Shown: positions 868-20,246 of the stretch, one piece after another
Layout of the letters: each line of letters opens with the position of its first letter
How positions within the stretch are numbered: the stretch's first letter is position 1
IMG/VR virus record: IMGVR_UViG_3300035182_000178
Location: 1-61,535 of that record
Length of the DNA stretch: 61,535 bases
Strand: one strand, 5' to 3'
From: a virus
Translations under genes and position numbers: made by a program
Notes under the pieces: model-generated
What the model was told of the DNA's origin: nothing
What the model saw: the letters and a program-made list of their open reading frames with translations, nothing else
Database searches by the model: none

Positions 868-1836
868 ATGGCACACGAAATCCACCGCGACGCCTCTGGC
901 AAGGCACACTTCGCTTATGTAGGCTCAACCCCTTGGCACGGACTCGGGCAACTGCTGACGCCCGACGCGTCACTCGCTGTCTGGACCCAAGAAGCGGGTT
1001 TCAACTGGCAAATCGAACGCGGCGATGTGATGACCGAACTGGCCGACGGATCCAAGATCGTTATGCCCGAACGTAACCTCCTGTATCGCTCTGATACGAA
1101 GGTTCCGCTGGCAGTTGTTGGTTCCAAGTACAAGATCGTACAACCGACCGAAATCCTGCACTTCTACGAAGACTTGATCGGTGCCGCTGGCTTTACGCTC
1201 GAGACTGCGGGTATGCTGTTCGGTGGTCGGCGTTTCTTCGCAATGGCGCGCACCAACTACTCCGACGAAGTGCTGGCAGGGGACAAGGTTGATCAGTTCC
1301 TGCTCCTGACTACCGCGTGCGACGGCTCTCTGGCCACGACTGCTAAGTTCACGAGCGTTCGTGTCGTGTGTAACAACACCCTGACGATGAGCCTGCATCA
1401 CGACAGCAAGCAGAACACGGTCAAGGTGCCTCACTCCGCTTCGTTTGATCCCAAGAAGGTCAAGGAGACACTGGGCATCGCTGGTGAGACCTTTGATAAC
1501 TTCCTGGTTGACATGCGCAAGCTGGCTGAAACGCCGATGTCCAAGAACGAGGCGATCAACTTCCTGATCGAACTGGTTGGCGATCCGATGGAATCTCTGG
1601 AAGACCAGACTCCGGGCGCGGCCAATCTCATGACTCACTTGTTTAATTTGTGGAATACGGACAGTATCGGCAACGAACTGGCGGGACATACTCATTGGGG
1701 CATGCTGAACGCTGTTACGGAATTCTACGACCATCACACGGGCCACAAAACCCGCGACGCTGCCCTGAACAATACGTGGTTCGGCGAGGGCGAAAAGCTG
1801 AAGCTCCAAGCCTACGACATGCTCGTTGCGGATTAA
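868..1836 (+). CDS. DUF932 family phage/plasmid-like protein
   Basis: 322 residues. The N-terminus, with its PWHGLG motif and the region up to about residue 110, and the overall length match the DUF932 family (phage/plasmid-like protein TIGR03299), common in phages and plasmids and of unproven biochemical function. The start is fixed by a strong AGGAG leader. The gene has its own promoter-like sequence upstream and an intrinsic terminator downstream, so it is probably a separate, highly expressed transcription unit. Its codon use looks more G+C-rich and regular than that of the small genes around it. Confidence 0.85.
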   Translation: MAHEIHRDASGKAHFAYVGSTPWHGLGQLLTPDASLAVWTQEAGFNWQIERGDVMTELADGSKIVMPERNLLYRSDTKVPLAVVGSKYKIVQPTEILHFYEDLIGAAGFTLETAGMLFGGRRFFAMARTNYSDEVLAGDKVDQFLLLTTACDGSLATTAKFTSVRVVCNNTLTMSLHHDSKQNTVKVPHSASFDPKKVKETLGIAGETFDNFLVDMRKLAETPMSKNEAINFLIELVGDPMESLEDQTPGAANLMTHLFNLWNTDSIGNELAGHTHWGMLNAVTEFYDHHTGHKTRDAALNNTWFGEGEKLKLQAYDMLVAD

Positions 1837-6632: not shown

Positions 6633-7094
6633 CTACGGCACCTTGGCTGGCTCAACGCGTTGGCCCCTAGGGGCAAGTATAGGCCAACCCAATAGAGTTG
6701 CTGGCGTACTGTCCAAGGGAACTGCATACTCAGTAAGTTCCGTCCTTGTCATGTCGTTAAAGTGTTCAGCTAGGTGGCTCGGAACAATAAACGTTTGCCG
6801 TGCATGGCTTACCCCCACACCACATAAGATAACGCTGCGTAGGCGCTTCTGCGAAGCTGCTATGTGCCATGCTATTTGTTCCACGCGCAGTCCGTCACGA
6901 CCAAACACCTTAGTTGTGTCACGCTTCGGCCATTCTTTCTGTGCTTTCAGTTCTACCCAGCAGTACCAGTCACCTTCGCCGATCCACAGGTCTGGAACAC
7001 CGTCACCAGTACTGGTCTCTATACGTACGTGAAAAAGCCCCGCTTTCTGCAAGCGAGGCTTCAGGGAAGACCAGAGATTATTCTCGGCTGCCAT
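6633..7094 (-). CDS. VRR-NUC / PD-(D/E)xK-type nuclease
   Basis: 153 residues. It shows the PD-(D/E)xK core D35-x12-E48-L-K50 in the context GVPDLWIG...VELKA, with a downstream Q73 in VEQIAWH, as in VRR-NUC and Holliday-junction-resolvase-like phage nucleases that cut branched or damaged DNA. Its start overlaps the stop of the radical SAM gene (TAATG), and AGGGAA provides the ribosome site. It is the last gene of the leftward operon. The role in replication or recombination is inferred from the fold only. Confidence 0.7.
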   Translation of the reverse strand: MAAENNLWSSLKPRLQKAGLFHVRIETSTGDGVPDLWIGEGDWYCWVELKAQKEWPKRDTTKVFGRDGLRVEQIAWHIAASQKRLRSVILCGVGVSHARQTFIVPSHLAEHFNDMTRTELTEYAVPLDSTPATLLGWPILAPRGQRVEPAKVP

Positions 7095-8044
7095 TATTTT
7101 TCCCAGGGACGTTTGACAATTGCCACGCGATTGATGTGATTGTCCTTTATCAGAGCGACGTCAGCGTCGGTGTAGCCCTCGAGCTTGACCTTACCGAATT
7201 TATCTGGTAGCAGACCGATACGGTAAGATGGATGATCACATCGTGAACAGATACCGATCTTATCACGCTCACCTGTGAGAAGGATTCGACGTGCAGCTTT
7301 GAACTTTTCATTGTTCCAGATCGTGTCAATTGCAGTGTGGTTGATGTTACCGAAATCAGTTTCGCGACGCCAGTCAATGCAGCAGATGGAAATATGTCCG
7401 TCCCACTTTACAGCCACCTCGCGGAACACCTTGGCACAACGTGCCTTCACCTTCCTCGGAGGAAGCCCGATTCCAGCGTGGTTGTTCAGTACGCTGTGTG
7501 TGCCTTTGGTTTCACCTGCAATGTCAGTCAGGAACACGAGACGCTGCTTGCGTGAACGCTGGTGCGGATTGGCGTCCTTGTTCGCTGGATAGTTCATTAC
7601 TTCGCGTGAAGCAGGCCAAGCAATCTTTTCGCCGAGGCCGCCGTCATAGTCTTCGATCGCCAGTGTGTTGATGCCAGCATCGAATATTGAATCGATCATC
7701 CCTTCTTTGGTGAACTTGGCGCCGTTACTGAGCATAACCATGTACTGACGCGGCAGGTGACGTCGGAAGGCTTCAATGATCAGGAACACATTGGGATTCA
7801 TAGAAGGCTCGCCGAAGCCAGCGAACAAGAGTTGACTATTCCACCCTGCGATCTTGATCTGCTTTGCTAGCTCCTCCGCCGTTTCCAGCGTCATGAACTT
7901 GTAGTCGCCGACGCCTTCACGAATACCATTGAGACCGCACGCCCAACAAAGTCCTTCGGTGCCGTCTGGTCGTGGAACACGGATATTACAACCTTCTGTC
8001 AGGTCGATCTGGATAGTAAAGGGCGCGTCTTGATTATAACTCAT
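7094..8044 (-). CDS. Radical SAM enzyme with SPASM-like C-terminus, putative DNA-base hypermodification
   Basis: 316 residues. An N-terminal cysteine set C19-x13-C33-x2-C36 (EGCN...CWACG) would hold the SAM-binding [4Fe-4S] cluster. It is an expanded version of the usual Cx3Cx2C. FAGFGEP is the GGE-like SAM-binding motif. The C-terminal part has VKWDGHISICCIDW and CSRC, typical of SPASM/twitch auxiliary clusters. Start 8044 is chosen for its GGAGATC site; it overlaps the GT-like gene by 11 nt. Radical SAM enzymes act in phage thymidine hypermodification (M6-type pathways). Here that role is inferred from co-localisation with hmdU-type genes. Confidence 0.75.
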   Translation of the reverse strand: MSYNQDAPFTIQIDLTEGCNIRVPRPDGTEGLCWACGLNGIREGVGDYKFMTLETAEELAKQIKIAGWNSQLLFAGFGEPSMNPNVFLIIEAFRRHLPRQYMVMLSNGAKFTKEGMIDSIFDAGINTLAIEDYDGGLGEKIAWPASREVMNYPANKDANPHQRSRKQRLVFLTDIAGETKGTHSVLNNHAGIGLPPRKVKARCAKVFREVAVKWDGHISICCIDWRRETDFGNINHTAIDTIWNNEKFKAARRILLTGERDKIGICSRCDHPSYRIGLLPDKFGKVKLEGYTDADVALIKDNHINRVAIVKRPWEK

Positions 8045-8951
8045 TGTAGATCTCCAGGAGTGTGGACTTAAGTTCTGCGACATAGTCTGTCGTCCACAGG
8101 TTACGTTGCTCGTTTCGCATAGCTAGTAGATCGGTGCTGCGATACATATGCTCAAGATCAGCAGCGTTTTCTACTTGCCACTTTTCAGGAACAATAATGT
8201 TGGCTTCGCGCAGCATCTTCACCGACCGTATGTCAAAGAAGATCGGGACACCGGCTGACAGCATTTCATAGAAACGATTGGCTGGCGAATGAAACTCACG
8301 ATGCGAGCGCTCGTCTTCTATGTAGAGCGCAGCATCAAAGCGACATGCTTCCTTGATCACGTTTTCAAACGGCTTGATGAACTTAACGTTCGCACCTATC
8401 GCCTCAAACTTCTTGCGACGAAGCGTCGTGGTGCTGACGGTGATCGGGCAGGTGCCTGTGAAGAACCGCTTGAACGACTCTTGTCGCTTTTCACGGAAGG
8501 CGCCGTAGTAAAGGACACAGTTGTTGCTGAGCATCCTGAACGGATGTGGGTCATAAGTCAGTTGGTTCCAGTTGATGTACCTATCGTCTTCAGTTATGAC
8601 GTTATTACGACATGTGGTCCAGAACACAGGGCGCAGCTTAAGTTCAGCGAAGACCTTACGGAACGGTGATTCGGCGTTACTATTGGCTGACGGCGGCATG
8701 ATCGTATAGTCTTGCTGCACCCAGACTACTTGCTTGCTTCGCCGGACAAGGGTAGCAAGCTCCGGCAGGAAGTCACAAAAGGCCATAGGTCCGTTGACGA
8801 TGATCAATTTTTCAATCGGACCTTTGTCCTTTGCTCGTTCTTTGGTGTCAATGAGACTGAGACCAAGTGTATCGCAAATGAACCGGGCGACACGCGCACT
8901 GGCGATTGTACTGTTCGGCTTACATTCTGTCATATGTACGACGCAGTTCAT
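8034..8951 (-). CDS. Glycosyltransferase-like protein (GT-B C-terminal signature)
   Basis: 305 residues. The segment SPANRFYEMLSAGVPIFFD near residue 225 matches the nucleotide-sugar-binding signature of GT-B glycosyltransferases (xNKxyExLaaGvPvi), including the catalytic-pocket Glu. The N-terminal half looks like a degenerate Rossmann domain. Its start overlaps the preceding stop (ATGA) and its end overlaps the radical SAM gene. Pairing with radical SAM, ThyA and hypermodification genes suggests it may glycosylate a modified base, but a surface or nucleotide sugar substrate is equally possible. Confidence 0.6.
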   Translation of the reverse strand: MNCVVHMTECKPNSTIASARVARFICDTLGLSLIDTKERAKDKGPIEKLIIVNGPMAFCDFLPELATLVRRSKQVVWVQQDYTIMPPSANSNAESPFRKVFAELKLRPVFWTTCRNNVITEDDRYINWNQLTYDPHPFRMLSNNCVLYYGAFREKRQESFKRFFTGTCPITVSTTTLRRKKFEAIGANVKFIKPFENVIKEACRFDAALYIEDERSHREFHSPANRFYEMLSAGVPIFFDIRSVKMLREANIIVPEKWQVENAADLEHMYRSTDLLAMRNEQRNLWTTDYVAELKSTLLEIYNEL

Positions 8952-9169
8952 TCAAACTTCTCCTTTCTTATTTCAAGCGCAGCGTCTGCCATGTTAGCCG
9001 CGAACGCAGCCGCGTCCTTTACTGACACAACATCGGGATTAGCACACATACTGGTCAATGCCGCAATGAAATATCGATCCCATGCCTCCGACCAACGTGG
9101 TTTACGCAACTGCTCAACTCTATCAGCGGCTTTTTCCATTTCGCTCAGCTTATCTATTATGCTACTCAT
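8948..9169 (-). CDS. Small hypothetical protein
   Basis: 73 residues with a GGAAGGAAG ribosome site. All-helical and Ala-rich in the second half, resembling a short dimerisation unit. It overlaps the GT-like gene by 4 nt. Not recognised. The 145 nt upstream, to 9314, contain only short broken frames. Confidence 0.6.
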   Translation of the reverse strand: MSSIIDKLSEMEKAADRVEQLRKPRWSEAWDRYFIAALTSMCANPDVVSVKDAAAFAANMADAALEIRKEKFE

Positions 9170-9314
9170 AGCTTTTCTTCCTTCCTAAAACGCCCTCACA
9201 CCAGAGCATAGTTTCGGCGGACCTACGCAGAGATCACGATTGTTTCTCCGGCATCTTTACATAGGTGCTCACCATAAAACTCTTGCGTTATTGATAGCAC
9301 CAGCCGTACGGTTA

Positions 9315-9668
9315 CTACTCGTCGCAAGCGCCCTTTACCCATCTATATTCGTAACCGCGCTTTCGGTTATAGACCTTTGCGCCATCACGATTCTGCTTCT
9401 CAATAAAACCCATTTTCTCGAGCTTCCGGAGAAAGGGAGTAGATACAGTCGACGCATAGCCGAGACGCTGCTCAATCTGCGCTTGCGTTGACCATGTTTC
9501 AGAAAAAATAACTTTTGAATACCGATCGATAGCTTCTTGGGTATGCTGTTCGCGACCCTTCTGCGCAATCGCTTTCCAGCGTTCGAGTTTGGCATCGTCC
9601 GTACCCTTGTTGCGGTTGAAATGACTGGCAGCTTTACCTGCCGCCTCAATCTGAGCTACGAGACTCAT
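9315..9668 (-). CDS. Putative winged-helix DNA-binding protein
   Basis: 117 residues. The region around 58-95 (WSTQAQIEQRLGYASTVSTP then LRKLEKMGFI) reads like a winged helix-turn-helix: helix, turn, recognition helix and wing. The C-terminus (RKRGYEYRWVK) is basic. It is coupled to the dCTP deaminase gene (ATGA overlap at 9665-9668). It may be a transcription regulator; specific target unknown. Confidence 0.5.
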   Translation of the reverse strand: MSLVAQIEAAGKAASHFNRNKGTDDAKLERWKAIAQKGREQHTQEAIDRYSKVIFSETWSTQAQIEQRLGYASTVSTPFLRKLEKMGFIEKQNRDGAKVYNRKRGYEYRWVKGACDE

Positions 9669-10219
9669 TTTTCTTTCACCTGCTGAGTCGCATGATCGCC
9701 GTTATAGCGACCACGAACAGCGTAAGACTTGTCTTCCGGCACTGGCTCTGAACGCCAGAAGATCATCTGACCGATACGAACATTGTGGTGGAGACGAATC
9801 GTGTGCCAGTTGCAGAAGTTGGTTAGTTCTAGCGTTAGAACACTGTCGTGCCAGCGTGGATCGCACCAAGTAGCCAGCGAATTTTCCAAGCCAACGCGAG
9901 CGCCAGAGCTATTGAGCTTGAACTCACAGCTGATGTCGTTCGGCAAGAAGAACTTCTCGGTCGTCGAAGCAAGGATAAACGCCTTAGGCCGTAGGTCAAA
10001 GTAACTGTTCGTGATGTCGACTTCTTGCATGAACAATTGTTCTTTGTCGCGCAAAGAAATGGTTGGGTTACTTTCCGGGTAGCATTCGAACTGCACCTTC
10101 TGACCTAGGTGAACGTCAATAGACGTGCCGTTGATGTCCTTAGGGTCTACCCCGGTAATGTAACCACGTTCAACAAACTCGCATAATTCGTTATAGCTTA
10201 TTAGACTTTTTTGCTTCAT
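9665..10219 (-). CDS. dcd: dCTP deaminase
   Basis: 184 residues, dUTPase/dCTP-deaminase fold. Motifs: GTSIDVHLG near residue 31, ILASTTEKFFLP, NSSGARVGLE (nucleotide-binding SS-AR-GL motif) and DPRW...LTLELTN containing the catalytic Glu. It converts dCTP to dUTP (some members go on to dUMP), feeding dUMP to the ThyA-family enzyme encoded in the same operon. Start 10219 is supported by AGGAGAAGGA; the upstream in-frame codon at 10261 lies within the previous gene. In hmdU phages such an enzyme supplies the uracil pool. Confidence 0.8.
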   Translation of the reverse strand: MKQKSLISYNELCEFVERGYITGVDPKDINGTSIDVHLGQKVQFECYPESNPTISLRDKEQLFMQEVDITNSYFDLRPKAFILASTTEKFFLPNDISCEFKLNSSGARVGLENSLATWCDPRWHDSVLTLELTNFCNWHTIRLHHNVRIGQMIFWRSEPVPEDKSYAVRGRYNGDHATQQVKEK

Positions 10220-10376
10220 CTTCCTTCTCCTTCTGTGGTTGCAGTTGTTCGTGTTCGACACAAGTGTCAGTCGCTTTGGTCTTCTTGCCGAAGATGCGCT
10301 CGTAGCTGTCGCGTCCTTTTTCAGACAAGATCCCTTTGGTTCTGATCTTGTCCCCTGTTATGTCATTTCTGCTCAT
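10191..10376 (-). CDS. Small charged hypothetical protein
   Basis: 61 residues with a GAGGAAC ribosome site. The very basic/acidic C-terminus (KEKEDEAKKSNK) is probably disordered. It overlaps both neighbours, the 165-residue gene by 4 nt and dcd by 29 nt. Not recognised. Confidence 0.55.
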   Translation of the reverse strand: MSRNDITGDKIRTKGILSEKGRDSYERIFGKKTKATDTCVEHEQLQPQKEKEDEAKKSNKL

Positions 10377-10870
10377 GTTTGTTCCTCAGCGCCTTGGATG
10401 GCTGCTAACTGTTCGTCCATTTCAATAGTCCCAAAACAAAGGTTATCAGCAGAAGGAGTGTGTCCGGTAATACGATCTGGTACGCCGATTTCTTGTAGCA
10501 CCTCGGCCTGCGAAGTAGAGCAGCAAGTAACAACAGGGACGACTTTTCCTTTATGGACATGGCGTCCTACAAGTTCATCGGCTGTCGGTAATCCATTCCT
10601 GGTTGCATTTGTCTCGCAGCGTTCGCATAAAATAGCATCGTCTGAAGGATTTGATGTAAACGTCAGGTGACGATCATGTGATGAGACAACCATACCGCAC
10701 CAGAACTGCACGGCGATGTGAGGGCGCTTGTGGATGCTGTAGGTAGATCCGCTCCGTGGCCGGTGTATCAATACACCACGTGAATTCTCAACAAACGGTA
10801 GACAGGCTTTCCACGGTGCTTGTCTGCTGACAATGTGCTTTGGTTTTTCCAGGTCAATAAGTGTACTCAC
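10373..10870 (-). CDS. Hypothetical protein with CxxC
   Basis: 165 residues from a GTG start with TTGGAG seven bases upstream; the longer in-frame start at 10918 has no such site. It carries ILCERC and, 30 residues later, VTCCS, a possible zinc site, plus a HxH-like basic stretch (GRHVHKGK). Not recognised. Confidence 0.55.
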   Translation of the reverse strand: MSTLIDLEKPKHIVSRQAPWKACLPFVENSRGVLIHRPRSGSTYSIHKRPHIAVQFWCGMVVSSHDRHLTFTSNPSDDAILCERCETNATRNGLPTADELVGRHVHKGKVVPVVTCCSTSQAEVLQEIGVPDRITGHTPSADNLCFGTIEMDEQLAAIQGAEEQT

Positions 10871-10942
10871 GATAATCTCCAAAAAAGACTCCCAGACGAA
10901 ACTCCATCCTTGAAGCAAGGTCAGGCAACTGAAGTTAAGAAG

Positions 10943-11119
10943 CTATGTCTGGGAGTTGGAAACCGTTAGTCGTTTGCATTCGGTCTTCACTCGACCGGCC
11001 TTGACATTGGCGTGAATCTGTCTAGCGTATTCCTTGCACTCGTTGTACGTTTGCATTGGATATTCGTTGACAGAAGTCGTCCCTCTGTACATGTACACCA
11101 CAATAAGGAGGACTTTCAT
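10943..11119 (-). CDS. Small putative exported or membrane-anchored protein
   Basis: 58 residues, ATG at 11119 with AAAGG six bases upstream, filling the gap after the polymerase gene. The N-terminus MKVLLIVVYM is a short hydrophobic signal or anchor, and the rest is polar with two Cys residues. A promoter-like sequence lies just upstream, at the end of the polymerase gene. Small proteins of this layout are frequent in phage early regions; function unknown. Confidence 0.55.
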   Translation of the reverse strand: MKVLLIVVYMYRGTTSVNEYPMQTYNECKEYARQIHANVKAGRVKTECKRLTVSNSQT

Positions 11120-11157
11120 GTAGCACCTTTCTATCTGTATGAATACTTGTTATGGGT

Positions 11158-11187
11158 ATTGTAGCACACTACCCAGCTAACCCCCAA
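11158..11187 (-). promoter_or_regulatory. Internal promoter candidate at the end of the polymerase gene
   Basis: On the minus strand, TTGGGG, an 18-nt spacer and TACAAT, preceded by GTGTGC as at 59753. It would re-initiate transcription for 11119 and the downstream dcd, GT-like and radical SAM genes. Confidence 0.35.
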
Positions 11188-13076
11188 TTGGCACCGCGAC
11201 CATCAGACACCAAAACAGGAACTACCAGCTTGTAGGCAGAAGTCATGATGTGTTTCATGTGCAAAGCTGCTTCCTCGTGACGCGGATTACCTGTCTCTAT
11301 ACTCATGCCTAACTCGTCATACACCGTGTTATGGTACATACCAAGAACGTCGGTGACTCCGTCTTGTACGCCCATAACCATCGCTTTCTTGATCCAATCA
11401 GCATTAGCCCCCTGCATGATAGCGTTCGCGGCTTTGTGCGTATGTGCGCGTTTGACCGCACCCCATGCCCTAATGGCAGCTTCTTTGTCTCTGGTGGGTT
11501 TCCATTTGTCTGGGTCTTTGGCTCGCTCTTCGGGACTAACCCACTTCGCACACTCCCAGGACTCAAATCTACGGCGGCGACCCCCTATGGTCATCACCCA
11601 ACCACGCGCCTGAGCGCGTTCCATGGCCTTATTGGACATTGCTTTTACGAACGGAGCGCGTTCATGATACTGGTTAAGAATCACCAAAGATTCTTTCTTG
11701 CTCAGCCCCAAAGACGAGGCCAATTTCTCTACGCCCATCCCGTACGCAAGACCAAAGTTAATGTTCTTCGCTTGCTTCCGGGTAAGCCCGGTGAGCTGAG
11801 CACACATTTCGTGGAAATCTGTTGCTGGATCTTCTTGGTACATTCGGAGCGCTGCTTCCACACCGCTGCGAGGAATTGTACTCGCAAAATGTACCATGAG
11901 GCGATATTCCATTTGGCTAAGGTCATAGCGAAGCCATTCGCACCCAACTTCAGGAAGGAACATCCCACGACACTTTTGAGAAAAATACGGATCTTTCTCT
12001 GGATTCGGAATGTTCGCAAGATTGGGGTGCGCGGTTGAAGTGCGACCTGTAACAGTTCCATATTCGTCTCCTTTGAGTTGATTGAAAATCGCATGAACAC
12101 GTCCGTTGACGTGCGAATTAAGGATATATCCTTGAATAAACGTATTTAGGAAATGTCGGTACTTCTTTGCATCCCTGATTGCACCAAGGAACGGTACTTG
12201 GTCTTCAAGTGTTGCGAGGACTTTACTGTTGAGTTTGGGATTACCGATTATAATGCCCTTCTTGAGCATCGCTGACGTCGGGGGATGGCGAGGATACGAC
12301 ACACCGAGCTTGTCAAGCTCTGCGGCAATCTGAGTAGAAGAACCAGCGTTAATTCCCGCGAATGACTTTTCCAGTTCTCGAAGTTTCTCGGCCCACTCAG
12401 CTTGAAGTGTTTCGGCATATTGAACATCGACGCGTACTCCTGTTAGATGCATACGAACAAGGATGGGGAGCAGGGCACATTCTACTTTCCAAATGTCTAG
12501 CAGACCTTGTTCTTCAAGAAGCGGTAACTGCTTGTCAAGTATTCGTATAGGTAAGTCGACGTCGCCTTTGGCGTAAGGTTCGACGATGTGAGCCGGACAT
12601 TTCCAGATGAATTTCTTTTCATGACCCGGCTTCGCTTTGAAGTGCTGACGGATATAGGTCAGCATTTCGTCTTCTACTTTACCTTCGCCGAGGTATTCTT
12701 GAGCCAGTGTTTCGAGTGCGTAACTGAACCTCTCTTCGTCGATAAGAGGTTCCGCAACTTGGATGTCGAAGAACGGGCCTTCCACTTGCACACCTTCAGA
12801 CCATAGGAACATAAGGTCGTATGCAAGGTTGGCACCACATTTAGGTATAGGTGTGGAGAGTTGTTCACTGAGCCAGCGTAGAACGGTATTCCTGTCAAGG
12901 TTTCCGCCTCCTTCATGGCGGATAGGAAAGTACCAGCGAGCTGTGCGCGTCCCGATAGCGACACCGGCAATATACCCGTCACGAACTGCTCCCGGCCCTT
13001 TTTCCTTGAGGTCAGGGTCGTAGGTTTCACAGTCAATGGAGATAATGTCTGCATTTTGTAGGTTTGGAAACATCAT
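11169..13076 (-). CDS. polA: Family A DNA polymerase with 3'-5' exonuclease domain
   Basis: 635 residues. The exonuclease domain shows D15-x-E17 (IDCETYD), N83-x3-D87 and D172 (YAKGD). Polymerase motif A is D385 in YDLSQMEYR, motif B is K434QAKNINFGLAYG446, and motif C is VYDE with D587. There is no 5'-nuclease domain, as usual in phages. Length and architecture fit the replicative polymerases of T7-like and related phages. It probably works with the AEP primase and helicases of the same operon. Adjacent ATGs at 13076 and 13073 are both possible starts. Confidence 0.93.
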   Translation of the reverse strand: MMFPNLQNADIISIDCETYDPDLKEKGPGAVRDGYIAGVAIGTRTARWYFPIRHEGGGNLDRNTVLRWLSEQLSTPIPKCGANLAYDLMFLWSEGVQVEGPFFDIQVAEPLIDEERFSYALETLAQEYLGEGKVEDEMLTYIRQHFKAKPGHEKKFIWKCPAHIVEPYAKGDVDLPIRILDKQLPLLEEQGLLDIWKVECALLPILVRMHLTGVRVDVQYAETLQAEWAEKLRELEKSFAGINAGSSTQIAAELDKLGVSYPRHPPTSAMLKKGIIIGNPKLNSKVLATLEDQVPFLGAIRDAKKYRHFLNTFIQGYILNSHVNGRVHAIFNQLKGDEYGTVTGRTSTAHPNLANIPNPEKDPYFSQKCRGMFLPEVGCEWLRYDLSQMEYRLMVHFASTIPRSGVEAALRMYQEDPATDFHEMCAQLTGLTRKQAKNINFGLAYGMGVEKLASSLGLSKKESLVILNQYHERAPFVKAMSNKAMERAQARGWVMTIGGRRRRFESWECAKWVSPEERAKDPDKWKPTRDKEAAIRAWGAVKRAHTHKAANAIMQGANADWIKKAMVMGVQDGVTDVLGMYHNTVYDELGMSIETGNPRHEEAALHMKHIMTSAYKLVVPVLVSDGRGANWGLAG

Positions 13077-13124
13077 AGATAAATGAGTCCTCTGTTACAG
13101 GTCCGAAGAACCAGGTGTGAATGA

Positions 13125-13221
13125 TTACCGATCACGCAAGGTAAACATCATGAGATACCTGACCGAAACCCGCTGCGTGGTCTTCACTTCAACACCCAGA
13201 ACCTCGTACAGATTCTTTCAT
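13125..13221 (-). pseudogene. Possible frameshifted small gene
   Basis: ATG at 13221 has an AAGGA site at good distance but its frame closes after ten codons. Skipping one base after ATGAAA joins it to a frame reading NLYEVLGVEVKTTQ... of 29 codons ending at 13125, which looks protein-like. It could be a decayed gene, a sequencing error or a +1 frameshift. Otherwise the polymerase leader holds no gene. Confidence 0.3.
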
Positions 13222-13230
13222 GTCAGTTCC

Positions 13231-13620
13231 TTACTTTTCAATCTTCTTACATTCTATGAAGACACGAAGACCTTCGGTGGCGGCGATCAGTTGGGAGACA
13301 CTTTTCCAGTGCATAATGCAGTCGATCAAGTAAATCTCTTCTTGAGGAAGACTGTTACTTACACAGAACCTCTGGAAAAGTGTTTCGTTCTTACGCGCCC
13401 CGCGAATGATTCCAGTGTAGCTGTGGATACATTCCAGGCGCTTAACAACGTACGAAAGCGCCTTTTCAAGATCAATGACACCGTTTTTCTTCCGCCAACG
13501 AGTGATATATTTCGTCGCCGCGTATTCCAGATTGGGTACATTGACTTCTACGCAGTAGTCCCAGTGTTGGTAGTCTGCCTTGTAATGCGTCCCCGCGACC
13601 TGTTTGCTGTCACTTATCAT
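13231..13620 (-). CDS. DUF3310 family protein (T7 gp1.7-like putative nucleotide kinase)
   Basis: 129 residues. The first 60 match DUF3310: GTHYK near residue 11, an HWDY segment, then ATKYITRWRKKNG...DLEKALSYV. The T7 member, gp1.7, is a nucleotide kinase acting on dTMP and dGMP. Placement between polA and the HD/ThyA genes suggests a deoxynucleotide-kinase role, possibly on a modified dUMP (inference). It overlaps the HD gene by 11 nt. Confidence 0.7.
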   Translation of the reverse strand: MISDSKQVAGTHYKADYQHWDYCVEVNVPNLEYAATKYITRWRKKNGVIDLEKALSYVVKRLECIHSYTGIIRGARKNETLFQRFCVSNSLPQEEIYLIDCIMHWKSVSQLIAATEGLRVFIECKKIEK

Positions 13621-14128
13621 ATGTGCTTTCTACGCTACGAAGAGATGAGACGACTGAATCCAGAAGTATCTTGGCTTTCGCTGGTAATTCCGACAGTTCG
13701 AATGAATCAAAGAACTGAACACCGTTTCGAAGAGGTTCGATGGCGTTCTTGTTGCCCATGTTGATTTCGTCAATACAGAACTGGCACAGTTCCATCATGT
13801 CAGCGAACTTCAGCTCCCGGGTTTCTTCTGCTGTCAGGTTCTGAGTCAGGTTATAACGCTTGTCAAATTCTGCTTCTTGAAGCGAGAGCTGACGCCGTAA
13901 TTCAGGCGAACGCCACTTCGTTGTGGCCGGGATATCACCTGTTTCCAGTTCGGCGAGATCGTGATAAAGAGCCGCTTTCAGAAGTTCTGGACGCACGTTT
14001 CCTTCGTAGATGTGAAGAAGAATCACAGCCACACCGTAGGAATGCTCGGCGAGACTCTGATCACGAGTAGTGGGTATGGTGTGAAAACGCTTCACACGAC
14101 TTGCAAAACGAAGACTATTGTAGCTCAT
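13610..14128 (-). CDS. HD-domain 5'-deoxynucleotidase (YfbR-like)
   Basis: 172 residues. Metal ligands of the HD superfamily are visible: H29 in AEHS, H56-D57 in LYHD, and a late Asp in FADMMEL. The GDIPATTK motif after HD matches the GDxPxPVK signature of YfbR 5'-deoxynucleotidases, which dephosphorylate dNMPs. With ThyA directly upstream (ATGA overlap at 14125-14128), it may remove a canonical nucleotide such as dTMP so that a modified one is used. That substrate is inferred. Confidence 0.75.
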   Translation of the reverse strand: MSYNSLRFASRVKRFHTIPTTRDQSLAEHSYGVAVILLHIYEGNVRPELLKAALYHDLAELETGDIPATTKWRSPELRRQLSLQEAEFDKRYNLTQNLTAEETRELKFADMMELCQFCIDEINMGNKNAIEPLRNGVQFFDSFELSELPAKAKILLDSVVSSLRSVESTYDK

Positions 14129-15096
14129 TTCTTGTCCTTGTTATAACGACGCTCAAGCCATTCGGTTGTGTACAAGCGCCAGTCGTCGGCACGAATGTTG
14201 TTGACGAAATCAAGACCGTTGCGGTAGTGCTTGTGGGCAATGAAGACTTCCCACATAGGCTTGACTACTTCCACAAAGAACGGGGTATCGAAGGAAACGC
14301 GTTCGTAGTTTTCGAAGAAGTTAATGAGATCAGAATTGAACTTATCGCGTGTAGTTTCCTTGAACAGGGGATAGAATGTCACAGCTCCTTCTCGGTATGG
14401 GTCTGTGATGTGAACATGGTGGTTCTTTACTTTTTCCCATTTATCGTTCAATTCCGTGTAGACATGCATGGAGTCGGTAGTCTGGTGATAGACGCCTACT
14501 TCGCAACCGATACACCCGGCCATGTATTCTTGAAGGATGCTGAACTGAGGCATGTTGGCCCCGGTCATACCCCAGATGAAATCATTACTACGATTGAACA
14601 CGTGGATATTCAAAGCACCATTGCGAATTTTGCAAGCGATCGCGGTGTTACACGGTTGATCTTTACCGGAATACCACATATCGTCCGGTTTACGAATCTG
14701 TAAAACAACGCGACGATCATCTGGATTTTGCTTGAGAATCTCAATCGCTTTCTCAATCTGGTCATTCGGGTGGCGCATACGATGCCCGTAAGCACCGTAG
14801 AAGACATCGCCGTTGTCACTATACTCTTTGAATGTAGAAACAATGTCTGCCAGGAACTCTACATCTTGTTGGCCAGCGAGAATCCACAGTGGTTCGAAGA
14901 AGTGTAAGAACGGGTTGATGTCACGAACTTTGTCAAACAGTACTCGCTCTTGTGGGCGTGTGTATGAGATACTGACGGGGTTCTCGTATTCAATAACAGG
15001 TCCATTACGACTTGCCCGTCGTTCACCACGACAATTCAAGAACAAGATTCCTCTCGGGAATGCATCGTTCACATTTCTGGCTTTGATTGTGTCCAT
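14125..15096 (-). CDS. Thymidylate synthase family enzyme (TS or dUMP hydroxymethylase)
   Basis: 323 residues. ThyA fold: LWILAGQQD near residue 70, GAYGHRMR, DDRRVVLQIRKPDD (phosphate-binding Arg), catalytic C149 in DQPCN, NRSND, and N181 in TGANMPQFS, the Asn that selects uracil over cytosine. This argues against a dCMP hydroxymethylase. Thymidylate synthase and dUMP hydroxymethylase cannot be separated by eye. The residue after the catalytic Cys is Asn, not the His of bacterial ThyA. Start 15096 (not 15144) is chosen because GGAGGAAAG lies just upstream and it gives a TAATG junction with the preceding gene. Confidence 0.85.
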   Translation of the reverse strand: MDTIKARNVNDAFPRGILFLNCRGERRASRNGPVIEYENPVSISYTRPQERVLFDKVRDINPFLHFFEPLWILAGQQDVEFLADIVSTFKEYSDNGDVFYGAYGHRMRHPNDQIEKAIEILKQNPDDRRVVLQIRKPDDMWYSGKDQPCNTAIACKIRNGALNIHVFNRSNDFIWGMTGANMPQFSILQEYMAGCIGCEVGVYHQTTDSMHVYTELNDKWEKVKNHHVHITDPYREGAVTFYPLFKETTRDKFNSDLINFFENYERVSFDTPFFVEVVKPMWEVFIAHKHYRNGLDFVNNIRADDWRLYTTEWLERRYNKDKK

Positions 15097-15278
15097 TAAC
15101 GCTTTCCTCCAGTTTTGTGGTAGTTCTCCCACCACACTTTGCATTTACGATACTGGCTGACTGCTGCTTCCACAGAAACGCACCAACCATTAGGGTCACC
15201 TTTGACACGGAACATTTCTTTACCGGAAATCGCCCCGTGTTTCTTGGCTACAACAATCTTTTCAGCCTCGGCCATCAT
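15096..15278 (-). CDS. Small basic hypothetical protein
   Basis: 60 residues starting at 15278 (GCGGAG site). Trp-rich C-terminal half (WCVS...KVWWENYHK) with a Lys-rich N-terminus. It lies between the hypermodification gene and ThyA and overlaps both, so it could be a small partner of one of them. Not recognised. Confidence 0.55.
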   Translation of the reverse strand: MMAEAEKIVVAKKHGAISGKEMFRVKGDPNGWCVSVEAAVSQYRKCKVWWENYHKTGGKR

Positions 15279-16104
15279 ACTTACTCCGCACCTTACCGCC
15301 ATCATACTTCAAACGCATGTACTTGTCAAACTCACACATACAGTTCTGTATGTCGTGAAGCGCAATGTCTTCTCCAAGGCGGCTATTGACTATTTTCTGT
15401 ATGTCCAGTAGTTCACGCGTCCCCTGCTGTTGTTTAATTGTACCACCCAAGGGGCGTCCGTATAAACGGTTCAAGCCACGAGTAGATCCTGGGCCGAGGG
15501 GTGCGAACGTGTTCCAGTCTGCGGCTGCGATGAGCGGGTGTGTGTACTTCAAATCCGCAATAACTTGACCAGCCATAAACGAAGAGAAGCCCTGAAACTG
15601 CTGAAGATAATTCCAATATTCTTCGAGTGACTGACCGACCACCGGGTTCTTGATCGTACTCAAGAGGGGTTTGAATACGACATCACACACGTAGTCAATC
15701 TTGTCCATAGAAAGACCGCAGGTTGATACCGTATAGGCACCAGTGAAAATCTTGTGCCCACCGACATCGCGACGACATTTCAACTTATCACGAACTTTAT
15801 TGAGGTCCGGTGATTCAGAAAATATTTCGTCTTGTATAGCGTGCAAGGTATCTGGCCAGTTGAAAATACGCGCGACGCACATGGCAAAGGCGAGGTTCTT
15901 GTGCGTGCTGAACATGTTCATCCAGTTTTCTTGGATCCAAATACTGACGCGGTCATCGTTTCGGCGTACGTTACAAAACTTGTAGTCGCGAAGGATCGGG
16001 TCTTTCGTCCAAGGTTTCGGGGAACCGAGTACGTCTTTCTGGATACGAATTGCTTCGCGTTCCGTGATCCAGTGAAGCAACTCAGAAAGGGCAGTTTCCA
16101 CCAT
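15262..16104 (-). CDS. DNA-base hypermodification protein (5-hmdU DNA kinase helical-domain / aGPT-PPlase type)
   Basis: 280 residues. The N-terminal signature EREAIRI...PWTKDPILRDYKFCNV (about residues 15-46) followed by RRNDDRV is characteristic of the helical, DNA-glycosylase-like domain family of phage base-hypermodification proteins (alpha-glutamyl/putrescinyl thymine pyrophosphorylases and the helical domain of 5-hmdU DNA kinases). No P-loop is visible, so it is the helical enzyme alone. Family knowledge: these proteins act on 5-hydroxymethyl-dU in DNA. Start 16104 is set by GGGAG. Neighbouring ThyA, HD and radical SAM genes support the role. Confidence 0.75.
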   Translation of the reverse strand: MVETALSELLHWITEREAIRIQKDVLGSPKPWTKDPILRDYKFCNVRRNDDRVSIWIQENWMNMFSTHKNLAFAMCVARIFNWPDTLHAIQDEIFSESPDLNKVRDKLKCRRDVGGHKIFTGAYTVSTCGLSMDKIDYVCDVVFKPLLSTIKNPVVGQSLEEYWNYLQQFQGFSSFMAGQVIADLKYTHPLIAAADWNTFAPLGPGSTRGLNRLYGRPLGGTIKQQQGTRELLDIQKIVNSRLGEDIALHDIQNCMCEFDKYMRLKYDGGKVRSKYDGRG

Positions 16105-16345
16105 TATATTTCTCCCAGTAAAGTTTCCCGTCAATCGGGTCACGAATATAACGACCTTTTTCGCCACGGTATTCAAAATACGCAGTGGTGAGGCTGTGAG
16201 ACTCGAACTTCAGTCCTGAAAGAAACACTGTCTCACCTTTCCAAGGGCCGTCTGCGCAAATAAAATCTGACTTAATATTGATACCCGTACCTTCCTTGCG
16301 GTAGCACGATGGTGACGTCTTGCTTGCTTCTTGTGACTGCGACAT
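16082..16345 (-). CDS. Small hypothetical protein, start uncertain
   Basis: 87 residues if started at ATG 16345, but that codon lacks a ribosome site and the first 25 codons lie inside the helicase gene. The part that looks conserved begins near 16290 (INIKSDFICADGPWKGE). A GGAAGG sits seven bases before an ATC codon there, so a non-standard start is possible. Beta-rich with YFEYRGEKGRYI; the 3' end overlaps the hypermodification gene. Not recognised. Confidence 0.5.
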   Translation of the reverse strand: MSQSQEASKTSPSCYRKEGTGINIKSDFICADGPWKGETVFLSGLKFESHSLTTAYFEYRGEKGRYIRDPIDGKLYWEKYNGGNCPF

Positions 16346-17798
16346 AGGCGCATCTGTGTTCGGAACATGGGTCACGCTGCATCTCCTCATAAGTTTTTCG
16401 TGACATATCAGACAAAATGATCACGTGGTCGGCTTCACCACCCTTGACACCGTGGATCGTGTTAACGTGAACACGGGCTTCTCCGGAAAGACGCTGTCTG
16501 CGCCTGAGCATACCGATATAAAATTCTCTCTTTTCGAGCGGTATTCCCAGTAGTGCTTTGTGCCACACGGGTTTATCAAGAAGTCCGTAATGATCTCGGA
16601 GAGTTTCCCATGTGAAATACTCGTCGGACTTGTCGATGTCGTTAAGTAAGGATTTCCCTCCACGCTGGAGTATAGTACCAACCCGTAAAAACTCGTAGAC
16701 AAGTTGGGCGGATTCAAGAGGTATGGCCTCACCACGCCTAAGAGATTCCCAGGCACTGATCGCACGAACATGCTCTTGATCGACTGCTCTTGTATCATTT
16801 CGCCCAGTGTAGTTGAATCCTCGTAGCTTGAGAAATTCGTATACTTCCTTCAGCAAATAGACATTGCGAACAAGGATGAGCGTACTTTGCTCAGGGTTAA
16901 TCTTAACTGCATCTAAAGTGCTAACGTAAGCCAGTTTGCCGGGGTGGCCTGCGGGTGTAAAAGGCTTGTCGAAGCGTTGCCTGACGCGGCCTATTAGGCT
17001 CGCGGCCTTATTGTATGCTGCCATAGGCAAGCGGTAACTGTGAGCTAGCACAGTAACTTCCCCGGCAAGGCTAAGGAACGTATTTAAGTCGGCACCAGAC
17101 CACTTGAAAATAGATTGGTCGTCGTCTCCGGCTATAGTGACTTTCTCGCAGTCCTGGAAACAACGTTGCAAAACTTCCCATTGAATACGAGACAAGTCCT
17201 GTGCTTCGTCAATGTACGCATAACGCACACTGATAGGATTACCTGATTCAATGTACCTGTCTAGTAGATCTGTAAAGTCTAGCTTACCGTTCCGTTTTTT
17301 ATATTCCCTGTATGCATTTGAAAATCTTTCTACTTCTGCGAACATTGTGTTGCTGTCTGAGTCTTTCCAGACGTCTCGCAAAGGTTTTCGCATCACCCTC
17401 GCCAAGTTATCTATAAACAGAAACTTGGCTCCTTTGTCTTGATCTGGGAGAACCAAAGCGCCGTCTTCAATGTTGATTGAAGCATTAAGTTCGTAACCCA
17501 GTAAAGCGCCTAGTTCAGCGTAGTTTTCTCTGGACATCAGATCACTACGCTGACAGCTCAGTTGTCTATAACAAAGTGCGTGGATAGTCTGGAAAAACGG
17601 CAGTCGGTCTTTGGTAAAGCCGAAACGCTCACTGACACGCTGTACAGCTTCACCGACGGCTTTCTTTGTAAAACTGACGAGCGCTATTTCGTTAGGTTCG
17701 ACGGAAACCAAATCCTGTTCGATTCTATTCAGAATCTCAGTTGTCTTACCAGTGCCAGGAGGACCTAGTAAGACAAACTGGTTAGACGCTATCTGCAT
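16272..17798 (-). CDS. UvrD/Rep-like SF1 helicase
   Basis: 508 residues. Motif I (Walker A) GPPGTGKTT is at about residues 12-20. Further motifs are SFTKKAV (Ia), IDEAQDLS (II), GDDDQSIFKWSGA (III), a motif V-like VNTIHGVKGGEADHV and VAVTRSK (VI). It is a superfamily 1A 3'-5' DNA helicase, shorter than cellular UvrD (about 720). It probably unwinds the phage replication fork or repairs ends. ATG 17798 is preferred to the TTG at 17801 because GGAGG is seven bases away; it forms a TGATG junction with the primase gene. Confidence 0.9.
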   Translation of the reverse strand: MQIASNQFVLLGPPGTGKTTEILNRIEQDLVSVEPNEIALVSFTKKAVGEAVQRVSERFGFTKDRLPFFQTIHALCYRQLSCQRSDLMSRENYAELGALLGYELNASINIEDGALVLPDQDKGAKFLFIDNLARVMRKPLRDVWKDSDSNTMFAEVERFSNAYREYKKRNGKLDFTDLLDRYIESGNPISVRYAYIDEAQDLSRIQWEVLQRCFQDCEKVTIAGDDDQSIFKWSGADLNTFLSLAGEVTVLAHSYRLPMAAYNKAASLIGRVRQRFDKPFTPAGHPGKLAYVSTLDAVKINPEQSTLILVRNVYLLKEVYEFLKLRGFNYTGRNDTRAVDQEHVRAISAWESLRRGEAIPLESAQLVYEFLRVGTILQRGGKSLLNDIDKSDEYFTWETLRDHYGLLDKPVWHKALLGIPLEKREFYIGMLRRRQRLSGEARVHVNTIHGVKGGEADHVIILSDMSRKTYEEMQRDPCSEHRCAYVAVTRSKQDVTIVLPQGRYGYQY

Positions 17799-19339
17799 CA
17801 AAATGCCTCCGCACCAAGATCAGCTTCTGGTAGGTCTTCGTTAACAACAACCTTTTCAGCTTTCACAAACCACGTTTGAACAACTGATTTACCAATGCCG
17901 AGTTGACGATGCTGCGTACCAGATTCACGGAGAGAAGCCCAGATCTTACGTGGCTCTATGCGCAACCCATTGTTCTCTAGGAAACGAATAAGATCGTTAC
18001 CACGGAAATACACGAATCCGTCTTCTTGGTTGTGCCAAGGGCGACCCAGCAACAGTTCTTCTCGTGTTTCTCCGAGTGGTGTGTTGATCAGGTACTGATG
18101 AACGTACTGGTTGACTCGTGTACCGACTCTAGTTTCGAGCGGCGCTTCGAGCAGTTCTACATTTTCCAGTTTCTCACGAATCATGCGCTCCCAAGGGATA
18201 CGTTTCATCAGTGGAGGTAGCTTGTTAATTGCCATCATACAGGCGCGACGAAACCTGTTTTGGTCCATCAGTTCTTCGGTGTCTAACTGAAGACGCACAC
18301 CCTCTACGTCAATAATCCAGATCGGTGGTTCAGTGTTTATCTTGCACAATGAACCAACGTTTAAGGTGAATTCTTCTTCAAGATCTCCGATACCAAAGAC
18401 ACGCTTTTTACATAAGTCTTTATTACAGTGTTCTTGTATCGGCGACTTACCGCACGGGTAGAAATATTCTTTGCGACCTAATGACTTGACAATAGTGCTG
18501 ACTTCTCTGGATTTCAGTGGGACTTCCAAAAAGTCCACATTCATCTCTTCTACTTTTTCTTGCCAGCCGTCCTCCCATTTTTTCCGGCAATATACACCCA
18601 AGGCAAAAAGCGCATTGTTACGCGAGCCTTCCGGGATTTTACCACTTTTTGTCAGAAGTTGGAGACACGGTGGGCCGTCGTCAAAGTTGCCTTCTGTGCT
18701 GACCGTGATGTCCATGAACGTTTCTTCGTCTACTTTGATACGTTCTGCCAACATCAAAAACTGCTCTATGTTGAGCGGCTTACCTCTGAAAATCGCGTAC
18801 CGTTTCGTGTTTTTGTACTCGAAATACGGCATGTTCAACCAGTTACCAACATCGCGTTTACTGGCGAGCGACGACTGCTTCGGGAAAATTTCTACGCCAC
18901 CGTGTCCAAGAGCAATAGAGAATTCGTACAGTTTGGCACGAACTTTCTTGCACGAAATAGGCTCAGAGAAGTAACACGTTAGGTGCGCGCCACCAGACTT
19001 AGTACGCAGAAGAAGTAACGGAAGGTTGAGTTCCCTTACCTTATTCTCGAGCTCGTCAAGATCGAGATCATATTTGTCAATATCAATCGCGCCCCAAGAA
19101 CAATTGGCATCATCAGTGATCGGAATAACGCCAAGACCGGCTGCCCCGTGCAGGTGTCCAACCCACAAATCAGCCTTGTATTTTCCTAGTTCAGTGGAAG
19201 CCCGTCCTTGTGTTTTCTTTCCATCTACGCCTTGTTTTGTGACGGTGTATTTTCCGTACGCACGATCTAATCCCTTGTACAGATCGAACAGAAGGTTTGC
19301 ATACTTCTGTTCGTCTGTTAGCTCGAAATCTTCAGCCAC
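17798..19339 (-). CDS. Archaeo-eukaryotic-type primase (AEP/PrimPol superfamily)
   Basis: 513 residues, GTG start. The N-terminal 200 residues carry the AEP core: D85-I-D87 in WGAIDIDKY (metal ligands), SGGAHL near 115 and HGGVEIFPKQ near 146, as in TOTE-type and phage AEP primases. A central Cys/His cluster (PCG...HCNKDLC) may bind zinc, followed by a C-terminal helical region. It would synthesise primers for the family A polymerase, since no DnaG-like primase is present. Overlaps the Cas4-like gene by 8 nt. Confidence 0.8.
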   Translation of the reverse strand: MAEDFELTDEQKYANLLFDLYKGLDRAYGKYTVTKQGVDGKKTQGRASTELGKYKADLWVGHLHGAAGLGVIPITDDANCSWGAIDIDKYDLDLDELENKVRELNLPLLLLRTKSGGAHLTCYFSEPISCKKVRAKLYEFSIALGHGGVEIFPKQSSLASKRDVGNWLNMPYFEYKNTKRYAIFRGKPLNIEQFLMLAERIKVDEETFMDITVSTEGNFDDGPPCLQLLTKSGKIPEGSRNNALFALGVYCRKKWEDGWQEKVEEMNVDFLEVPLKSREVSTIVKSLGRKEYFYPCGKSPIQEHCNKDLCKKRVFGIGDLEEEFTLNVGSLCKINTEPPIWIIDVEGVRLQLDTEELMDQNRFRRACMMAINKLPPLMKRIPWERMIREKLENVELLEAPLETRVGTRVNQYVHQYLINTPLGETREELLLGRPWHNQEDGFVYFRGNDLIRFLENNGLRIEPRKIWASLRESGTQHRQLGIGKSVVQTWFVKAEKVVVNEDLPEADLGAEAF

Positions 19340-20172: not shown

Positions 20173-20246
20173 TGGTGCCTCCGAACGGAATCGAACCGCT
20201 ACCTGATGATTACAAATCAACTGCACGACCTTCATGCTACGGGGGC
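20173..20246 (-). tRNA. tRNA-Thr (anticodon TGT), encoded CCA
   Basis: A complete cloverleaf can be drawn on the minus strand. Acceptor GCCCCCG/CGGAGGC has one C-A mismatch. The D-stem is GCAT/GTGC. The anticodon stem GTTGA/TCATC has one T-T mismatch around loop TTTGTAA (anticodon TGT). The T-arm is AGCGG-TTCGATT-CCGTT, with discriminator A followed by CCA. It lies inside the replication operon, between the ssDNA-binding-like gene and the Cas4-like gene. The two mismatches may mean it is decaying or edited. Confidence 0.85.

Follow-up and report, generated by a model that had tools for sequence, protein, structure and literature searches.

What becomes of thymine in the DNA of a virus in which genes resembling those of a thymidine hypermodification pathway share an operon with a glycosyltransferase-like gene and a gene for a radical S-adenosylmethionine (SAM) enzyme? 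The question is raised by a leftward operon at positions 6633-16104 of a 61,535-base virus contig, IMG/VR record IMGVR_UViG_3300035182_000178, which was analysed over its whole length (the window) and is possibly an incomplete record. A first-pass annotation had read this operon as a thymidine hypermodification pathway, and had taken the pairing of the radical SAM gene with the glycosyltransferase (GT)-like gene to point beyond simple 5-hydroxymethyldeoxyuridine (hmdU). Homology, synteny with phage M6, active-site residues, structure models and recurrence in many contigs together support both statements. Part of the thymine in the DNA of this phage is very likely exchanged for a heavily modified base. 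Our proposal, at a probability of roughly 0.6, is that this base is a thymine replacement bearing a sugar: hmdU in DNA would be glycosylated, and the product would then be oxidised by the radical SAM enzyme.

All open reading frames (ORFs) named in the annotation were recovered from the ORF list at their positions on the minus strand. The genes are closely packed, several of them overlapping by a few bases, and family matches in Pfam and PHROGs agree with the names given, including ThyA, YfbR-like HD, DUF3310, family A polymerase and dCTP deaminase, with the exception of the GT-like gene:

15262-16104, minus strand: aGPT-Pplase1 (PPlase), an amino-acid:DNA transferase-type protein with the HMUDK_hel domain (PF18723, E=5.3e-45; phrog_2396, E=1.4e-63)
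14125-15096, minus strand: predicted ThyA-superfamily dUMP hydroxymethylase (Thymidylat_synt, E=6.6e-21; phrog_5131, E=6e-98)
13610-14128, minus strand: YfbR-like HD 5'-deoxynucleotidase, presumed to remove dTMP (PF12917, E=1.7e-14; homologue of M6 gp59, 34%)
13231-13620, minus strand: DUF3310 protein (T7 gp1.7-like), presumed hmdUMP kinase (phrog_5839, E=1.3e-25; 39% to M6 gp61)
11169-13076, minus strand: family A DNA polymerase with a 3'-5' exonuclease domain (PF00476 DNA_pol_A, E=2e-50; PF01612, E=6e-6)
9665-10228, minus strand: dCTP deaminase, a source of dUTP (PF22769 DCD, E=1.4e-22; phrog_1663, E=1.9e-37)
8034-8951, minus strand: predicted GT-B fold glycosyltransferase, structurally akin to T4 DNA beta-glucosyltransferase (AlphaFold2 and Foldseek)
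7094-8044, minus strand: BtrN-type twitch radical SAM enzyme (Radical_SAM, E=1.1e-8; SPASM, E=1.7e-13)
7937-7990, minus strand: radical SAM cluster motif CX13CX2C with a 10-residue insertion (alignment with relatives; DNA read directly)
6633-7094, minus strand: small Hjc-like nuclease/phrog_2165, the last gene of the operon (phrog_2165, E=1.3e-20; homologue of M6 gp66)

The Pfam match of the DUF3310 protein is sub-threshold (20.4 bits, against a cut-off of 24), and the dCTP deaminase also matches TIGR02274 (E=1e-23), just under the cut-off of that family. The radical SAM ORF could be extended to 8083; the start at 8044 is favoured by its relatives. The Hjc-like gene is probably a replication gene and not a modification enzyme.

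The closest known parallel is the 5-(2-aminoethyl)deoxyuridine (5-NedU) pathway of Pseudomonas phage M6, found also in its Yuavirus relatives and in the Pseudanabaena phage Pam3, whose core genes are homologous or equivalent to those of the window. The M6 products gp55 (PPlase), gp58 (thymidylate synthase, TS), gp59 (HD), gp61 (DUF3310), gp62 (PolA) and gp66 (Hjc-like) are encoded in the order seen here, with the succession gp55-gp58-gp59-gp61-gp62 kept, and the place of the M6 dCMP deaminase (gp65) is taken in the window by a dCTP deaminase. The conserved M6 gene order, together with further viral contigs that hold the complete set, shows that the operon is not a product of chance. The M6 5-HMUDK kinase (gp54), pyridoxal phosphate (PLP) enzyme (gp52) and spore photoproduct lyase (SPL)-like radical SAM enzyme (gp53) were not detected in the window, which has instead, as additions to the M6 set, the beta-glucosyltransferase-like GT and the BtrN-type radical SAM enzyme.

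The ThyA homologue, 42% identical to M6 gp58, has a CMP 5-hydroxymethylase as its nearest solved structure (E=1.8e-18). At the position of Leu143 in Escherichia coli TS it carries an aspartate, as do 102 of 104 of its phage relatives, equivalent to Asp145 of the T4 dCMP hydroxymethylase, which the T4dCH paper found essential to the activation of the water from which the hydroxyl is formed. Two features of true synthases, Trp80 and the C-terminal tail, are gone, and Asn177 is retained; because the T4 cytosine enzyme has Asp179 at this last position, uracil rather than cytosine is the expected substrate. The pattern as a whole is common to the 104 phage relatives. Judged by these residues, the product of 14125-15096 is very likely a dUMP hydroxymethylase.

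For the GT-like gene at 8034-8951 no significant family match was found in Pfam, PHROGs or NCBIfam, and it is assigned as a glycosyltransferase because of its structure model. The AlphaFold2 model, built from 18 sequences, has a mean predicted local distance difference test (pLDDT) score of 91, and its five best PDB matches in Foldseek are all T4 DNA beta-glucosyltransferase (BGT), the best being 1c3j (E=2.3e-10); GT4-type enzymes follow and, lower, the T4 alpha-glucosyltransferase. The earlier GT-like label is thereby vindicated on fold. Because sequence profiles miss BGT, we liken the protein to BGT in function but leave it outside that family. The two have the GT-B fold in common, and relatives of the window GT adjoin hydroxymethylpyrimidine-forming genes; T4 BGT acts on 5-hydroxymethylcytosine in DNA, whereas the hydroxymethyl base of the window would be uracil. 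From the model we infer, with good support, that the protein works like BGT, and we predict that it transfers a sugar to hydroxymethylpyrimidine in DNA. Its clearest full-length relatives among cultured phages are those of coliphages IME392 and EP_H11; the neighbours of the IME392 gene are a PIG-L deacetylase, an HMUDK_hel protein (PPlase), a P-loop kinase, TS and HD.

The radical SAM/SPASM label of 7094-8044 was sound, both domains being matched, and it can be refined. A 43-row profile compared with all solved chains matched BtrN with E=2.8e-23 over two stretches, which cover the radical SAM core and the auxiliary-cluster domain; the next best match had E=3.9e-6. In Foldseek, too, a model of the protein (pLDDT 90) has BtrN as its best fold match (E=1.7e-15, TM-score to target 0.78-0.82). 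In profile as in fold, no solved protein is nearer than BtrN, whose lead over all the rest amounts to many orders of magnitude. The auxiliary-cluster residues Cys203, 221, 266 and 269, invariant in 43 aligned sequences, align with Cys169, 187, 232 and 235 of BtrN, the spacing being 18/45/3 in both. SpeY and DesII appear among the weaker matches. BtrN, SpeY and DesII act on sugar-like substrates and are dehydrogenases or related radical enzymes, BtrN-type twitch enzymes being two-electron alcohol dehydrogenases. By analogy, this BtrN-type twitch enzyme of the phage would have dehydrogenase activity; BtrN itself, from butirosin biosynthesis, acts on a small free cyclitol to give an intermediate of the antibiotic, while the phage enzyme is presumed to act on DNA. 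Assignment to the SPL-like type of M6 gp53 was rejected, as there is no match and the family is a different one. A search of viral contigs with the single sequence returned no relatives, which were found by an alignment-based search. Proteins annotated as BtrN/radical SAM in the Campylobacter phages CP20, CPt10 and vB_CjeM_WX1 are about 23% identical to one of these relatives, that of locus L067.

The two additional genes travel together. Loci were gathered from four IMG/VR scans (one of which yielded no relatives), one GTDB genome scan and annotated phages, and comprise 107 radical SAM loci, which fall into 58 clusters when grouped at 80% identity, as well as 64 GT loci, which fall into 43. 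PPlase or TS occurs in the fetched flanks of 46 of the 58 radical SAM clusters; as PPlase is present in just 462 of 50,697 phage records, its association with the radical SAM gene is far from background. A glycosyltransferase-like gene stands beside the radical SAM gene in 48 of the 58 clusters. Its product may be homologous to the window GT, belong to the TAGT family (PF20691) or to a TAGT-related family (linked at an hhalign probability of 98.8), or be a GT4-like protein recognised by weak Pfam matches. In 32 of the 33 loci holding both the window-type GT and the radical SAM gene, the two lie on the same strand within 720 bp. Relatives of the window GT, in turn, have PPlase/TS or TET as neighbours in 38 of their 43 clusters. 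Two loci, L020 and L142 (the latter a contig binned with a Patescibacteria metagenome-assembled genome), hold radical SAM, GT, PPlase, TS, HD and DUF3310 genes together, as the window does. A tandem arrangement of GT, radical SAM and second GT is seen in L123 and L124, where TS, PPlase and TET were not detected.

The same two families also occur with a second, unrelated source of hydroxymethylated bases. The radical SAM gene lies beside TET/JBP in L143 and in three viral contigs (L058, L063, L064), and six GT clusters contain TET/JBP (L130, L133 and L136, for example); TS or PPlase is found in none of these TET-linked radical SAM viral contigs or GT clusters. A direct Pfam search confirmed TET in six of six such records tested, five of them above the curated cut-off. 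At L143:9914-15790, on the chromosome of Actinomadura rayongensis and probably part of a prophage, the radical SAM gene is accompanied by genes for a C5-cytosine DNA methylase, a TET/JBP dioxygenase, a ParB-like protein and a GT4-like protein. These TET/JBP-type cytosine hypermodification clusters of phages and prophages have a dioxygenase together with members of the radical SAM or GT families of the window, whereas the window, in which a PF12851 search found no TET/JBP gene, would obtain its hydroxymethyl base from the nucleotide pool via TS. Since what the TS and TET routes share is hydroxymethylpyrimidine in DNA, the work of the GT and the radical SAM enzyme most likely follows hydroxymethylation, with the hydroxymethyl group or its glycoside as target.

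Several neighbours of the GT and radical SAM genes in other loci are related to sugars or to further decoration. In IME392 the PIG-L de-N-acetylase (L005:8292-8903) lies two genes before the GT and HMUDK_hel genes, which suggests that the modified base of that cultured phage bears an amino sugar. A heptose-7-phosphate kinase of the HldE domain I type (L010:9114-10004, E=2e-84) overlaps the start of a GT gene and suggests heptose or a related sugar donor in the phage concerned. A fusion of a cytidylyltransferase-like domain with a mannose-6-phosphate isomerase-type domain (L051:6428-7459), with relatives in the radical SAM/PPlase loci L056, L082 and L099, presumably serves sugar-nucleotide supply. 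A UbiE-like SAM methyltransferase gene adjoins the GT or the kinase in L006, L015, L019, L021, L022 and L106-L109, and is a candidate for a further decoration step.

Taken in order, the predicted activities would form the following pathway. dUMP, derived through dCTP deaminase and host enzymes, would be converted by the ThyA homologue to 5-hydroxymethyl-dUMP; the HD phosphohydrolase would drain the competing dTMP, the DUF3310 protein would phosphorylate hmdUMP and PolA would incorporate hmdU. These initial steps, as predicted from homology, are strongly supported. In finished DNA the BGT-like enzyme would move a sugar from a nucleotide sugar onto the 5-hydroxymethyl group, a step for which fold and genomic association provide support. 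The BtrN-type enzyme would then carry out a two-electron oxidation of a hydroxyl, most likely one belonging to the sugar, to leave a keto-sugar on the DNA, and PPlase may add or exchange an amine or amino acid as a further group. Support is weaker for the oxidation of the sugar, which is suggested by the BtrN match and the pairing with glycosyltransferases, and also for amine or amino-acid transfer by PPlase. We know of no enzyme whose radical chemistry is directed at the sugar of a glycosylated DNA base, and the literature searched reports no end product for the combination of hmdU, GT and BtrN-type radical SAM enzyme, although the pairing may have been listed earlier. A broader proposal, to which we give tentative and less than even credence, is that the window represents a widespread kinase-independent branch of hypermodification: hmdU would be glycosylated, the DNA-bound sugar turned into a keto-sugar by the BtrN-like enzyme and possibly aminated by PPlase, with the same module acting elsewhere on hydroxymethylcytosine made by TET.

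PPlase itself requires closer attention. The first-pass annotation had called this 280-residue protein a helical DNA-base-hypermodification protein and expected it to fall within the hmdU kinase/aGPT-PPlase helical families, and its PF18723 match puts it there; its identity as an hmdU kinase is, by contrast, ruled out, because a P-loop is lacking and its matches are to M6 gp55 and PF18723. It is 33% identical to M6 gp55 over its full length, aligns full-length with proteins annotated as aGPT-Pplase1 and retains 20 of the 22 family-invariant residues, and is accordingly a transferase of that type. A search of solved structures gave only chance matches for it, and NCBIfam offers no name for PPlase or for the GT. 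The expectation that each step would have a plausible gene held only in part: no dUTPase was identified in the window, and the 5-hmdU DNA kinase, which in M6-like phages supplies aGPT-PPlases with their substrate, was not detected anywhere in it with M6, Pam3 and TM26 kinase queries and a 13-row profile, in a record that is possibly incomplete. The sole P-loop motif found among the ORFs of the record belongs to a UvrD helicase. The kinase search took in 18 records: the four positive controls all gave strong matches, and the other 14, made up of the window and 13 further records, lack the kinase. The invariant PPlase residues are the same with or without the kinase, and a search for residues lost together with it gave only one unremarkable position; rows without the kinase are spread over the PPlase tree, with 10 changes among 64 rows. 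A PPlase without the kinase would imply either another mode of activation or another PPlase substrate.

A number of these observations, with some not yet mentioned, weigh against sugar oxidation on glycosylated hmdU as we propose it. The TM-score of the GT to BGT is moderate, about 0.6, and the GT sequence profile, run against PDB sequences, matched neither BGT nor any other solved protein. Most radical SAM clusters lack a BGT-like GT and have other GT families or, in a few, none detected. The kinase is also absent from 13 other radical SAM records of 47-99 kb, and its absence leaves the role of PPlase unexplained, though the invariant residues of that protein are intact. Finally, the record may be incomplete, and the radical SAM protein of the window has an insertion present in none of about 98 relatives. 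The main rival reading moves the oxidation from the sugar to the 5-hydroxymethyl group, giving 5-formyl-dU in DNA, or to a group installed by PPlase; the carbonyl would be the electrophile of PPlase, which would explain why the DNA kinase is not needed. The lack of the kinase in most of the records tested, with PPlase intact, is in its favour, as are the structural match to two-electron alcohol dehydrogenases and the few radical SAM clusters (L032, L034, L047/L049) that have TS or PPlase and show no GT. We nevertheless consider it rather unlikely, because the radical SAM gene is paired with an adjacent glycosyltransferase gene in the large majority of clusters and because kinase and radical SAM genes coexist in L015-L019, L106 and L118.

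It is also possible, though unlikely, that the pathway stops short in this particular phage and that its DNA carries glycosylated hmdU or only a precursor, the radical SAM enzyme having been inactivated. Its catalytic iron-sulphur cluster motif reads CX13CX2C, against CX3CX2C in relatives, owing to the 10-residue in-frame insertion that separates its first cluster cysteine from the second and that no other relative examined shares; this copy could be altered or inactive. An imperfect local DNA similarity at the insertion (ACAGAAGGTTGT / ACCGAAGGACTTTGT) may hint at a small duplication. The reading frame and all the other conserved cysteines are intact, however, the protein is otherwise conserved and the model is confident, and expanded motifs can work, as in QueE of Burkholderia, which has CX14CX2C. 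An apparent CX12CX2C in some relatives was discarded as a pattern artefact caused by an upstream cysteine, the true reading being CNLxCxxC. That the window encodes an ordinary M6-like pathway, with the kinase in a missing part of the genome or supplied by the host, an amino-acid-derived thymine as product and the GT and radical SAM enzyme decorating a minority of residues, would suit the core genes, which are the M6 set in M6 order, and the fact that IMG/VR records can be incomplete; it is made improbable by the 13 further kinase-less radical SAM records, in a search whose positive controls all succeeded, and by the M6 PLP and SPL-like radical SAM enzymes, which occur in none of the 58 radical SAM clusters and have no match in the window. 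We give hardly any credence to the idea that the GT and radical SAM enzyme serve a target other than DNA, such as a host surface glycan or a peptide, and that their place in the operon is fortuitous. Peptide maturation is a common role of SPASM-type radical SAM enzymes, and phages do carry surface-modifying glycosyltransferases, but both families are found overwhelmingly beside two unrelated kinds of DNA-base modification genes, TS/PPlase or TET, PPlase itself is rare among phage records, and the nearest solved fold of the GT is a DNA glucosyltransferase.

Glycosylation in connection with this type of pathway has precedents. In pelagiphages, a region near PolA contains TS, aGPT-PPlase1, 5'-deoxynucleotidase and a putative glucosyltransferase, the last annotated as a beta-glucosyl-HMC-alpha-glucosyltransferase, with no radical SAM enzyme mentioned (PMC9599517). 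These clusters give the link between a GT and the aGPT-PPlase/TS pathway a precedent, although the pelagiphage enzyme is probably of another family than the window GT. Bacillus phage SP-15, with glycosylated dihydroxypentyluracil, is likewise a phage with a glycosylated thymine replacement, and one of its glycosyltransferases is among the fold matches of the window GT; SP-15 has flavin-dependent (Thy1) synthases and a sugar-phosphate gene cluster, whereas the window has a ThyA-type enzyme. The components of the window operon belong to or resemble known families, and their combination is a variant of thymidine hypermodification.

Elsewhere in the window, the modification genes are preceded on the minus strand by genes for an AEP-TOTE-type primase with PriCT_1 (17798-19339) and a UvrD-like helicase (16272-17801), and in several of the same contigs from IMG/VR relatives of both likewise come before PPlase. 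A single tRNA-Thr (TGT) lies at 20173-20246 (minus strand), between a PDDEXK nuclease gene and the next gene of the operon. The divergent rightward block contains a DUF932 protein gene (868-1836, plus strand), and a gene that may, from its sequence, be DUF932-like is found near PPlase in 25 mostly similar radical SAM loci.

By modifying their bases, phages block restriction enzymes and other nucleases, and such modifications have been a source of useful enzymes. If sugar oxidation on hmdU is correct, the operon would specify a new class of glycosylated, radical-oxidised thymine, whose reactive carbonyl might serve as a chemical handle on DNA. The dozens of contigs that carry these genes share a single downstream module, which is joined in some to a TS route and in others to a TET route. 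A related GT is present in two cultured coliphages, IME392 and EP_H11. For the aGPT-PPlases as a family, these loci raise the question of how hmdU is activated where the DNA kinase is absent.

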